From positions 1-64,000 of the forward strand of contig JAOADD010000040.1 of assembly GCA_026417495.1 (NCBI GenBank): a DNA stretch of 64,000 nt, in the 5' to 3' direction. The stretch is from Ignavibacteria bacterium. Lineage in GTDB: Bacteria > Bacteroidota > Ignavibacteria > Tepidaquicellales > Tepidaquicellaceae. The notes under the pieces were generated by a model. That model saw only the letters and a list, made by a program, of their open reading frames with translations, made no database searches and was not told the origin of the DNA. Positions within the stretch are counted from its first letter, which is position 1. The number at the start of each line of letters is the position of its first letter. This document shows, piece by piece, positions 13,340 through 57,921 of the stretch. The translations under genes and the position numbers were made by a program.

Positions 13340-14308
13340 CTATTCTGAATATTTTTCATAAGCATCAATTATGTCTCTAACCAGCTTATGTCTTACTACA
13401 TCACTTCTTGTAAAATATACAAAAGAAATACCTTCTATACCTTTTAGAATTTTCTGTATTTCAACAAGCCCCGAATTACTCTTATTTGGCAAATCTATTT
13501 GGGTAATATCTCCTGTAACTATAGCTTTTGAATTTACACCAAGGCGAGTAAGAAACATTTTCATTTGCAAAGAAGTAGAATTCTGAGCTTCATCTAAAAT
13601 TACAAATGCATTGTTTAGTGTTCTACCTCGCATATATGCAAGTGGAATTACTTCAATTGTGTTTCGTTCTATATAAGTTTTAAGTTTTTCAAAAGGAATC
13701 ATATCTTCAAGAGCATCGTACAATGGTCTTAAATATGGATCAATTTTTTCTGTCAAATCACCAGGTAAAAATCCAAGACTTTCTCCTGCTTCAACTGCAG
13801 GACGTGTTAAAACAATTTTATTTACTTCCTTGTTTTTCAATGCTGCAACTGCAAAAGCAACCGCGAGATATGTTTTACCTGTCCCCGCTGGCCCTATAGC
13901 AAATACAATATCATTTTCCTTAACCTTTTTATAATACTCATATTGTCCTTCCGTACGAGGTTTAATAAATTCATTCTTTTTATATAGGATTATATTATTC
14001 AGATCAGAAGTGCTAACACCAAATTTTTCTTTGAACTTATTATGACTGTTTTTATCATCTATTAAATCTAACACAAGATTAATATCATTTTCAGTAATTT
14101 GCCCTTGTTTCTTATTTAGAAAAATTAATTCTTTAAAAACTTTTTCAATCTTTTCAACTTCCGATTTTTCACCTTTAATAATAATATTTTCACCCCTTAA
14201 AATAATTTTAGAATTAAAATAATTTCTAATTATTTCTAGATTTTCCTCTCTAACACCCGCAAAACTCATCACATCAATGTTTGAAAGGGATATTTCTTTT
14301 TGTATCAC
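13340..14308 (-). CDS. phoH: PhoH-family ATPase
   Basis: 322 residues from the GTG at 14308. The PhoH ATPase domain has Walker A GPAGTGKT (about 138-145), the signature LGFLPGDLTEKIDPY, Walker B FVILDEAQN and sensor motif VTGDITQIDLP. An N-terminal KH-like segment (about 10-65) precedes it. PhoH-like proteins are RNA/ATP-binding proteins often linked to YbeY. The start is doubtful: the frame is open for at least 18 codons above the GTG to an ATA at 14362, which sits 8 bases after a strong AAGGAG (14371-14376). Translation from there would give 340 residues (see findings). Confidence 0.9.
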   Translation of the reverse strand: MIQKEISLSNIDVMSFAGVREENLEIIRNYFNSKIILRGENIIIKGEKSEVEKIEKVFKELIFLNKKQGQITENDINLVLDLIDDKNSHNKFKEKFGVSTSDLNNIILYKKNEFIKPRTEGQYEYYKKVKENDIVFAIGPAGTGKTYLAVAFAVAALKNKEVNKIVLTRPAVEAGESLGFLPGDLTEKIDPYLRPLYDALEDMIPFEKLKTYIERNTIEVIPLAYMRGRTLNNAFVILDEAQNSTSLQMKMFLTRLGVNSKAIVTGDITQIDLPNKSNSGLVEIQKILKGIEGISFVYFTRSDVVRHKLVRDIIDAYEKYSE

Positions 14309-14370
14309 ATCAAGATTTTCAAAATCCTTTGATGAACCTATTGAATTTTTACTTTCTTCTATTTTTTTAT

Positions 14371-14376
14371 CTCCTT
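14371..14376 (-). promoter_or_regulatory. Shine-Dalgarno upstream of phoH pointing to a non-AUG start
   Basis: On the minus strand the bases read AAGGAG, followed after 8 bases by ATA GAA GAA AGT in frame with phoH. There is no ATG, GTG or TTG at the proper distance. The first canonical start (GTG 14308) is over 60 bases downstream and has no Shine-Dalgarno of its own. Other well-expressed genes here (lipoprotein, LysM protein, T9SS proteins) do carry clear AGGAG sites. Confidence 0.5.
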
Positions 14377-14418
14377 TTTATAATTTAATAGTAAATTTAA
14401 AATGAATTATTAAAAAAT

Positions 14419-54775: not shown

Positions 54776-55642
54776 CTATTTAATTTTAAAGTATTCTAAA
54801 AACGAAAAATACCTATATCCTTTTCTCTCAAATCTCTGTAATAACTTTATAAAATCTTCAAATTCTGTATAAAGTACATCAACCATAATTGCCTTTTTTA
54901 TCTTAGGTGTTTTTGAAAATTCTATTATTTTGTTTTCTAATTCAGAAAATTTTTTTTCTGTATTATCGCTTGAGCTTAAATCTATTATTAAAGTGTCAGA
55001 AAATATAAGACTTCTACAAGTAGATAAATTTGATATAATTTCTTTTTCAAAACTATAAAATTTCTTGGGGTTAAAAAGTATTAATGCTTTATCTTTTTGA
55101 TAATGATTACAAATATCATTAATCTTGTACTTCATTTCTTGAGATTTTCTAAAATCCGCTTCATAATCTTCGGTATCTCCAATCTCAAAAGTTATTATAT
55201 ATTCTTTTCTTGAATTAATTATCTCAGACTGCAAATCAATTCTATTCAAATTACGAGGCAAAAGAACTGTACAATAAGAAGAATGATTCAATATATCTTT
55301 TATTTCTTCTACACTATATTTATCCACATTTTTTAGAAGTATACATAAATCAACAAGTTCCCTTTTAATTGTAGAATTCCTAATAAATTCCAACCTTACA
55401 AGCAATTTTTTATTATCTAACAATTCTGAAGAAATTTTCCCTGATTCTATATGCTCATTTGAATTTATTTCAATACTATATGGTAATAACATTGTTTGCA
55501 GTTCATATAAAATCTCGACGGGTGAAATATCGAAGGGAATATTAATTTCTTTTGTGAAAAGCACATCTTTTTGTTGGTTAGTCTTTACCCATTCTTTTTT
55601 AATTCCAAAAGTATATAAAACGGAATCTATTTCAGAAGACAA
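54776..55642 (-). CDS. Degenerate divergent-polysaccharide-deacetylase-like protein
   Basis: 288 residues from the first canonical start (TTG 55642). The C-terminal half follows the outline of the divergent polysaccharide deacetylase (YibQ/DUF610) family: a strand with YCTVLLPRN, then EYIITFEI, CRSLIFSD and a final ERKGYRY, but the catalytic DD, HxP and NNHMGS residues are not seen, so it may be non-enzymatic. The same frame runs on upstream without stop to 55801 and adds a membrane helix (about 55705-55768). A membrane-anchored protein starting at AUU 55801 or CUG 55786 is more likely than the TTG version (see findings). Confidence 0.65.
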   Translation of the reverse strand: MSSEIDSVLYTFGIKKEWVKTNQQKDVLFTKEINIPFDISPVEILYELQTMLLPYSIEINSNEHIESGKISSELLDNKKLLVRLEFIRNSTIKRELVDLCILLKNVDKYSVEEIKDILNHSSYCTVLLPRNLNRIDLQSEIINSRKEYIITFEIGDTEDYEADFRKSQEMKYKINDICNHYQKDKALILFNPKKFYSFEKEIISNLSTCRSLIFSDTLIIDLSSSDNTEKKFSELENKIIEFSKTPKIKKAIMVDVLYTEFEDFIKLLQRFERKGYRYFSFLEYFKIK

Positions 55643-55811
55643 GTCATTAATAAAATTTTCTTTTTCTTTAAAATTTATTTTTATTTCACCTTTTTTATTA
55701 TTGATTTTTATAATAATTAAAACAACAGATAGAACTAATAAAAATATAATAATAAAGATTTTATATTTATTGCTAACAGGAATCAGCTTTAAGAAATTAA
55801 TTTAAGGAAAT

Positions 55812-57371
55812 TTATTCTTTAATGAAGTTTTTCTTTATAAATTCTGTTCTTATGTTTTCTAATAATTTCTCAATATTAGTAATATTCTCATAATTCATTA
55901 ATTCTATAAGTTCATTCACATAATTTTCATTCCTTGCACCAACCAATACATAATTAACACCAGGCACACTCCTGATGATTTGAATTACTTTTTGAGATAA
56001 ACTAAGAGTTTTAAAATCAAGCCCCTTTGGATAAATTTTACAATGTGACTTAACATAAAATTCATCTATAATATTGCTAATTTCTTTATTCCTATTATTA
56101 GAAATAGCTTTATAATAATCCATCAGTTGACTTAATAATGTATCTATTACCTTTAAATATTTTTCCAAATATTGCTTGAAAATAAGTCTTTCTTCAAATG
56201 GTTCTATTTCTTGAAAATCAACATCTCCAACTTCAAAAGAAAGTAATCTTTCAGGGGTAATAACTGTATTACCTGAAAGTTTAAGAGCAGATATATCAAA
56301 ATTGAAATAATTTAATATATATAGAATTTTAGGGAAAAAGTAGTTTTCAATGTAATAGGTTAAATGTTCTATAGAAGAAAATCTATTCCAGTTTTCTTTA
56401 ATTTTATTTATCAATGTAAAAAATATAGGATTATCTCTCTTCTTTTCTTTCACTAATGCTATATACTGAAGTTCTTGTTTGATTAGTCTGCTTTCTAATT
56501 CAATAGCATCCTTTAAACTATTTTGAAATTCTTCTTCTGAAAATTTTCCTTGAGAATATTCAACAAGTCTCACTAAACCTTGTTCAGTTATCGCATTTAA
56601 TGGTCGATTAGTTAATACTATTAAACCACTTTTAGAAGCTATTTCAAGTAATGTTTTAGAATTGTTTTTTTGATTCTTTTCGAAAAATGCATTTGACTCA
56701 ATAATATTAAAAGGAAATTCAATATAGCGGAAGTGATTTTTGGAACTTACCTCGTTAGCTATTTTTATTAACCTTTCCAGTGAAGTAAAATCATATCTAT
56801 TAGACCTAAAAGGAAATGTATTCGACGAAACGCCATAGTATTTAATATTACCTGTTTTTACTTGCTCCTCTAAAAATTCAAAAGCTTTTTTTATCCTTCG
56901 ATAATATTCGGTCTGAATATCATACTCTAATTTAGTATAATTTATACCTGAAGATTTCTCTTGAAAGTCGAGAAAAATCTCAGGATTGTGTAGTAAGTAT
57001 CCGTCTATATATCTGTTTTCTTCAGATTGTATTAATCTTTCTAATTGCCTTTCTAGTTGGTCTGACAAAAAATCTGGGCTTATACTGTACCAAGTTTTTT
57101 CAGAGTATTCTATAACATCTTTAAAAGGTTCTTTGAGTAGCTTTTTTTTAAGTGCAAATTTATAATTCTGACCCTGTATATATCCCGCTTTAGTAATTAT
57201 AGTAATATCTTTTCTTGAAATTATTCCATCTCTAATTAAATCATTTATTACATTGCCTACAAGTAATTCACTTGCACCATCAGAATAATTCGAAGCAGTA
57301 TCTATAAGTCTAATGCCTGAAACAATTGCTTTATAGAGGGAGTTATAATGTTCTTTGACTCTAAAGTCCAC
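55812..57371 (-). CDS. Aldo/keto reductase with large helical insertion
   Basis: 519 residues from GTG 57371, far longer than the usual ~330. The catalytic tetrad is intact: Asp and Tyr in DTASNYSDGASE, Lys in ITIITKAGY, His in GYLLHNPE. Later barrel strands are KYYGVSSN, RYIEFPFNI and LIVLTNRPL. A ~170-residue helical insert (about 295-460) precedes the final GARNENYVNE nucleotide-binding block. It should reduce a carbonyl with NAD(P)H; substrate unknown. The first strand of the barrel (IGFGCYRV) lies above the GTG, so the real start is upstream, most simply the ATA at 57419 (see findings). Terminates 10 bases before the proposed start of the deacetylase-like gene. Confidence 0.85.
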   Translation of the reverse strand: MDFRVKEHYNSLYKAIVSGIRLIDTASNYSDGASELLVGNVINDLIRDGIISRKDITIITKAGYIQGQNYKFALKKKLLKEPFKDVIEYSEKTWYSISPDFLSDQLERQLERLIQSEENRYIDGYLLHNPEIFLDFQEKSSGINYTKLEYDIQTEYYRRIKKAFEFLEEQVKTGNIKYYGVSSNTFPFRSNRYDFTSLERLIKIANEVSSKNHFRYIEFPFNIIESNAFFEKNQKNNSKTLLEIASKSGLIVLTNRPLNAITEQGLVRLVEYSQGKFSEEEFQNSLKDAIELESRLIKQELQYIALVKEKKRDNPIFFTLINKIKENWNRFSSIEHLTYYIENYFFPKILYILNYFNFDISALKLSGNTVITPERLLSFEVGDVDFQEIEPFEERLIFKQYLEKYLKVIDTLLSQLMDYYKAISNNRNKEISNIIDEFYVKSHCKIYPKGLDFKTLSLSQKVIQIIRSVPGVNYVLVGARNENYVNELIELMNYENITNIEKLLENIRTEFIKKNFIKE

Positions 57372-57438
57372 CCTGTAACATCCGAATCCAATATTGGCAA
57401 TATTTTTACTTTTCTTTATAATAATTATATAATTTATT

Positions 57439-57921
57439 TTACTCGTCTGCTTTTACATCTAAATAAACGATTTTATATCCTTTAATTGTCTCTATCAATG
57501 CAAAGATTACACCGACCAAAACTAAAATTAAACCAGTAGAAAAAGTTATTATCTTAATTGGGTCAAATAAGTTTATTCTAAAAATTAATTCAGCACCAAT
57601 AACTAAAGAAGTAAGTATAAACATAAAAATACCTAATATATGGAATACAATACCGTTTCTTACAAGTCTTAACCGCATAAGCAAATCATCTAATTGTTTA
57701 TTTATACTTTGCAATCTTAAAGTTTCAACAAATTCAATATTTACATTATTTTGTAATTTTAGCATATATCTTCTTCTTTCTTCATTTAAAAGTCTAATCC
57801 TATTAACAATAGATGAATGCTTATTGTTAATTGCTAATAACATTAATCCACAAGCAGATATCATCACCGCAGGTGCAAGCATCATTTGAATTGCTTTAAT
57901 AAAAGTATCTATATCCAACAT
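57439..57921 (-). CDS. DUF2721 membrane protein
   Basis: 160 residues. N-terminal helix (about 12-30: MLAPAVMISACGLMLLAINN), a basic/coiled segment (about 35-85: RIRLLNEERRRY ... LRLVRNG) and two more helices (about 88-110 and 122-148). This matches the DUF2721 layout, and the family is of unknown function. First gene of the minus-strand operon ending at tadA; divergent from ptsI. Confidence 0.82.
   Translation of the reverse strand: MLDIDTFIKAIQMMLAPAVMISACGLMLLAINNKHSSIVNRIRLLNEERRRYMLKLQNNVNIEFVETLRLQSINKQLDDLLMRLRLVRNGIVFHILGIFMFILTSLVIGAELIFRINLFDPIKIITFSTGLILVLVGVIFALIETIKGYKIVYLDVKADE

Follow-up and report, generated by a model that had tools for sequence, protein, structure and literature searches.

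Initiation of translation at near-cognate AUN codons is already known in bacteria, and several described systems come close to the gene discussed here, an aldo/keto reductase (AKR) of an Ignavibacteria bacterium. The start codon of infC is an AUN codon mismatched at the third base, in the genomes studied here (ATT, ATT and ATA) as elsewhere, and this it shares with the start proposed for AKR; infC differs in that AGGAG precedes its start and that IF3 is known to feed back on it, neither of which is shown for AKR. In Borrelia burgdorferi, pncA (BBE22) is described as starting at AUU, while its annotated start cuts essential N-terminal residues: the resemblance to AKR is that of a metabolic enzyme, but for pncA the start has been established genetically and with a crystal structure (PMC13398362), whereas that of AKR is proposed from sequence.

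In Staphylococcus aureus, ccpN (AUA) and cvfC1 (AUU) are described, together with infC, as having non-canonical starts (PMC13009471). The first two resemble AKR by near-cognate AUN codons that are conserved among species, low expression being described for them and presumed for AKR; they differ by an extended Shine-Dalgarno motif, which AKR does not have, and by starts mapped through ribosome profiling (PMC13009471). The GTC start of sigR in Streptomyces is described as repressed by IF3, in a cotranscribed and coupled gene pair: a non-canonical start in a gene pair is also what we propose for AKR, but in sigR the codon is GTC, the product is a regulator and the proof is genetic (PMC5472188).

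With respect to these systems, AKR would add a case that is unproven, and that is set apart in two ways: its leader has no Shine-Dalgarno motif, and a neighbouring gene is in the same state. Literature listings on AUU and AUA starts, near-cognate starts and rare starts contain no report of this AKR, or of near-cognate starts in Ignavibacteria.

The reading frame and its product

The window, that is, the whole stretch of 64,000 nucleotides that was analysed, belongs to a draft genome of 2.19 Mb in 76 contigs. On its minus strand, the AKR frame, which reads KQTSKINYIIIIKKSKNIANIGFGCYRV, extends without a stop between 57452 and 55812, and the first ATG, GTG or TTG in it is the GTG at 57371. Upstream lies the gene of a DUF2721 protein (57439..57921, minus strand), which has an ATG start and whose end overlaps the AKR frame by a few codons. 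Read from the ATA at 57419, the proposed AKR coding sequence (55812..57419, minus strand) encodes 535 amino acids followed by a stop, and 19 bases separate this ATA from the end of the DUF2721 gene. The preliminary description of the locus had named this first canonical codon and this gap, and had noted that the frame runs without a stop into the previous gene: all the coordinates that it gave are borne out. Downstream, another frame is open (54776..55801, minus strand), with no Pfam match at E <= 0.001. An Rfam search of the window returns tRNA only.

The protein belongs to the AKR family by profile, barrel fold and tetrad. It matches Pfam PF00248 (Aldo_ket_red) with an E-value of 4.6e-17; its AlphaFold model is a barrel with a large helical insert (mean pLDDT 85.8), and the top matches of a PDB fold search are AKR structures. 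The residues Asp, Tyr, Lys and His, which we take to be the catalytic tetrad of the family, are D40, Y45, K77 and H144 in the AKR protein (A2): across the aligned AKR proteins Y, K and H are invariant, and D is present in at least 90%. A single homology match indicates one copy in the window's genome.

Relatives and the loss of the canonical start

AKR has a match at E <= 0.001 in 46 of 59 related genomes. Start codons were inspected in the best 30 of these 46: the window's genome, 28 others, and CP054675.1, called G002 in what follows, a separate single-contig complete genome of another species of the same genus, with an identity of 64%. Each of the 28 others has a canonical start upstream of the conserved GFG, the nearest being ATG in 26, GTG in one and TTG in one, and relatives in the window's family mostly start 6-8 codons before GFG. 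Contrary to these, G002 has no canonical start either: 153 codons of its frame are open before one appears, namely a TTG at +132 past GFG, followed by an ATG at +146, and the TTG lies past three of the four presumed catalytic residues. The preliminary description had suggested looking for an ATG in relatives, as evidence against its reading; the 28 more distant ones have a canonical start, while the closest species shares the lack of one. Gene finders limited to ATG, GTG and TTG would clip AKR by 16 residues in the window's species, and by about 140 residues in G002, catalytic residues included.

In a draft of 76 contigs, it is legitimate to ask whether an ATG went missing through faulty assembly or base calling, and an assembly indel was indeed among the findings that, by the preliminary description, would undo its proposal. 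We give this explanation hardly any credit, because the same defect is found in G002, which is another species, assembled separately in one contig, and has a different sequence.

The stretch in question evolves as a coding one. In the 152 aligned codons that precede the first canonical codon of G002, the numbers of changes at positions 1, 2 and 3 are 25, 22 and 74, a pattern by which we take the N-terminal stretch to be translated in both lineages, or to have been so until recently. Over the whole gene, the comparison of the two species yields a dN of 0.25 and a dS of 1.94, or a dN/dS of about 0.13, and this dN exceeds that of 92% of 179 ortholog pairs. Given this high dN, AKR may be weakly expressed, or at the onset of decay. 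One could go further and suppose that the gene is decaying, that its start is lost, and that any protein arises by chance: the high dN agrees with such a scenario, and so does the gene after AKR, which is also without a canonical start. However, the frames of about 546 and 548 codons have no internal stop in either species, and the low dN/dS, the third-position excess in the N-terminal part and the retained catalytic residues all make decay improbable.

An AKR frame without a usable canonical start is thus confirmed, by comparison of the sequences, as real and beyond chance. An ATG is still present in G001, the remaining genome of the genus, and most simply the canonical start would have been lost in the common ancestor of the window's species and G002, a dating that relies on the comparison of G001 with these two.

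Candidate start codons

We propose that translation of AKR begins at a near-cognate AUN codon, most likely the AUA at 57419, with AUU at the homologous site in G002, a reading to which we assign a probability of about 0.78. The in-frame near-cognates comprise ATA 57428, ATT 57425, ATT 57422 and ATA 57419, which the preliminary description took for the only plausible initiators, and also ATA 57437, ATT 57401 and ATT 57392, which it overlooked. The two main candidates are the ATA at codon -10 before GFG (57417..57419, minus strand) and the ATT at codon -4 (57399..57401, minus strand), both of them ATT in G002, and both AUN codons with a mismatch at the third base alone. Between the DUF2721 stop and ATT 57401, there is no ATG, GTG or TTG in any frame; the first such codon after the stop is an out-of-frame TTG at 57400.

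Start contexts were modeled on 105 ortholog pairs in which ATG is aligned with ATG, giving 210 sites from the window's genome and G002. These sites are rich in A, and a Shine-Dalgarno-like motif is uncommon among them: 29 of the 210 have one, or 24 with a stricter set, so that the absence of such a motif in the AKR leader, in the window's species as in G002, is ordinary. It does count against a near-cognate start that a strong Shine-Dalgarno motif accompanies the AUA and AUU starts described in S. aureus (PMC13009471), as one does in infC, while there is none in either AKR leader. Two other traits of genes with AUN starts are found in both species, namely the lack of a canonical codon that fits the conserved N-terminus, and a near-cognate codon in a start-like context, ATA 57419 and its ATT counterpart in G002.

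In the window's genome, ATA 57419 scores 9.4, which is at the 93rd percentile of the 210 aligned ATG starts (median 4.5), ahead of ATT 57422 (6.0), ATT 57401 (5.0), ATT 57425 (4.3) and ATA 57428 (2.8). In G002, the ATT at codon -10 scores 5.1, the one at codon -4 scores 5.4, and the one at codon -11 scores 0.7. Among 1681 ATA and ATT triplets located 5' of real starts, 0.4% reach a score of 9.4, and 7% reach 5.1. The site at 57419 is itself A-rich, and the 71 bases that surround it form little structure (MFE -1.7; weaker in 8% of the 210 true starts), so that it resembles most start sites of this genome.

The scores also bear on the idea that translation starts at GTG 57371 (57369..57371, minus strand) and yields a shorter working protein. 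This GTG is the sole canonical codon near the N-terminus of AKR in the window's genome, but its score of -9.9 is below those of all 210 true starts, and it has no counterpart in G002, where the codon is GTA and the first canonical start is far inside the gene. The first strand of the AlphaFold model consists of residues 10-13 (IGFG) and the GTG is residue 17, not inside the first barrel strand, as had been stated, but past it: a start there would strip the whole strand, together with the residues G, G, Y and R of GFGxYR, which are invariant in all 28 aligned proteins. Its context, the alignment and the comparison with G002 lead us to reject this start as extremely unlikely.

The choice between codons -10 and -4 is more delicate. 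ATT 57401 sits in a stretch of 12 bases, TAAAAATATTGC, that is identical in the window's species and in G002; relatives start 6-8 codons before GFG, a distance to which it is nearer on one side; and in G002 it scores slightly above codon -10. On the first two of these grounds it had been our top candidate, but it ranks second by the context model. Codons -11 to -5 show too few changes between the two species, synonymous or nonsynonymous, for a choice, and since the feature is present in two species alone, the substitution pattern cannot separate N-terminal codons from leader. When both species are combined, codon -10 is most likely the start and codon -4 comes second, as a live alternative, the exact codon being deduced from these scores. 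The preference of the preliminary description for a near-cognate start upstream of GTG 57371, at ATA 57419, thus gains support from the best context and from the homologous ATT. The protein would begin with M-K-K in the window's species, and with M-T-K in G002; the predicted N-termini are (f)MKKSKNIANIGFG from 57419, (f)MANIGFG from 57401 and, from GTG 57371, the V of VDFR read as fM.

If AUA 57419 is the start, the initiator tRNA-fMet (CAU) would pair with its first two bases, the third being mismatched. The fMet-tRNA would be placed on it by a 30S subunit, or by one left from the termination of DUF2721, and part of the ribosomes that terminate at the DUF2721 stop, 19 bases before it, may re-initiate there, through a putative coupling. 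The output of AKR would presumably be low, and sensitive to IF3. Reporters with AUA or AUU starts are described as giving about 10-30% of the AUG output in S. aureus (PMC13009471), and in E. coli, excess IF3 is described as reducing both re-initiation without Shine-Dalgarno motif and initiation at non-canonical codons (PMC2268962). IF3 is present in all three genomes of the genus, and among the tRNAs of the window's genome, L177 is of the initiator type, its anticodon stem containing three G-C pairs.

The overlap of a few codons between the AKR frame and the end of DUF2721 points to yet another route: ribosomes could reach AKR by frameshifting, either from the DUF2721 end or after initiating in a different frame, in the manner of prfB, whose +1 frameshift in these same genomes is picked up by the survey described below. 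However, relative to the DUF2721 stop, the AKR frame is at +1 in the window's species and at +2 (or -1) in G002, with 52 and 47 bases, respectively, from stop to GFG. Since the offsets differ, opposite shifts would be needed in the two species, and we reject a frameshift from DUF2721; the direction of the shift is not conserved between species, as a prfB-type mechanism would have it. Inspection of the junction reveals no repeated slippery motif in either species, and the frame of the TTG at 57400, the sole canonical start of another frame nearby, closes in G002 within three codons. Frameshifting therefore appears to us a poor explanation. If initiation at a near-cognate AUN codon is the right one, then a bacterial gene can keep such a start through speciation without a Shine-Dalgarno motif.

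Probable near-cognate starts elsewhere in the lineage

The start of infC is ATT in the window's genome (L035) and in G002 (L036), and ATA in G001 (L034), with AGGAG before each: this is the arrangement classically known for IF3, although Shine-Dalgarno motifs are otherwise rare in the lineage. In phoH (window positions 13340-14377, minus strand; proposed start ATA 14362), there is no ATG near the N-terminus, and GGAG is followed by ATA both in the window's genome and in G002, with context scores of 11.3 and 9.4; G001 has ATA-GAA at the matching place. The matching codon in other members of the family is ATT (G021), ATC (G007), ACG (G006), ATG (G016) or TTG (G005), and it is TTG in G029, from a neighbouring family.

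The gene after AKR, which adjoins it in many relatives (tblastn), encodes a hydrophobic N-terminus that is conserved and that precedes TTG 55642, the first canonical codon; this codon is number 53 in the window's genome and the corresponding first one is number 108 in G002, while G001 has a TTG at the start place. In pstC (L203:16855-17817, on G000:C2, minus strand), the family profile matches from residue 26, and the first canonical codon is number 44. A pgpH-like 7TM-HD gene (G000:C52:34961-37219, plus strand; L082, L083) has no canonical in-frame start in the window's genome or in G002, and an in-frame TTG in G001. These three genes probably also start at near-cognate codons; for pgpH, a +1 frameshift is a possible alternative, since translation from a TTG or ATG of a different frame would come to a UAA at which a shift by +1 leads into the pgpH frame.

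With AKR, the near-cognate candidates number six, or about 1% of the 497 gene-sized frames present in 618 kb. The counts of the single-genome coding screen are lower bounds, and AKR, whose upstream part is short, is not among its best rows. In the comparison of orthologs, a pair is flagged when at least 8 shared codons lie upstream of the first canonical start. Between the window's genome and G002, 15 of 179 pairs are flagged: judged by hand, from third-position excess and homology, they divide into 4 near-cognate starts, 1 prfB frameshift, and 10 conserved leaders or ordinary starts. Flags in control pairs number 13 of 127 for G029/G032 (1 coding-like) and 7 of 124 for G008/G020 (none coding-like), and an excess of near-cognate starts over controls is not established (4/179 vs 1/251, Fisher p = 0.17). 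Between the window's genome and G001, 24 pairs on C59 yield one flag, a leader, and the enlarged sample of 59 pairs yields three, infC and two that are shadow-frame-like.

It is tempting to suppose that discrimination of start codons is relaxed in this Ignavibacteria lineage, with about 1% of near-cognate starts, in part shared between species, several without Shine-Dalgarno motif, that set low expression. We regard the idea as tentative and rather doubtful. Still, the near-cognate starts of the lineage (infC, phoH, pstC and others) may suffice for a comparative study of start-codon fidelity. TilS (TIGR02432) is found above the family cut-off in 0 of the 44 genomes of the order to which the window's genome belongs (G000-G043), as against 15 of 15 genomes from families of the class outside this order, which would mean that TilS is absent from the order as a whole. 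A tRNA-Ile with anticodon UAU (L159) is found in the window's genome, among the 30 of 41 tRNA matches listed.

Two loci met along the way are of separate interest. Upstream of the ATG of G000:C52:9138-10112 (minus strand), 27 codons are nearly identical in DNA between the window's genome and G002, with 3, 1 and 2 changes at the three positions: unlike a coding stretch, this leader is perhaps a conserved RNA or regulatory element. In the pair G029/G032, the gene at G029:C1:1124463-1125413 (minus strand) has a conserved N-terminus, KYTKYLSPADIVTQAM, upstream of its first canonical start, with 0, 1 and 7 changes, and a near-cognate start in this neighbouring family is possible.
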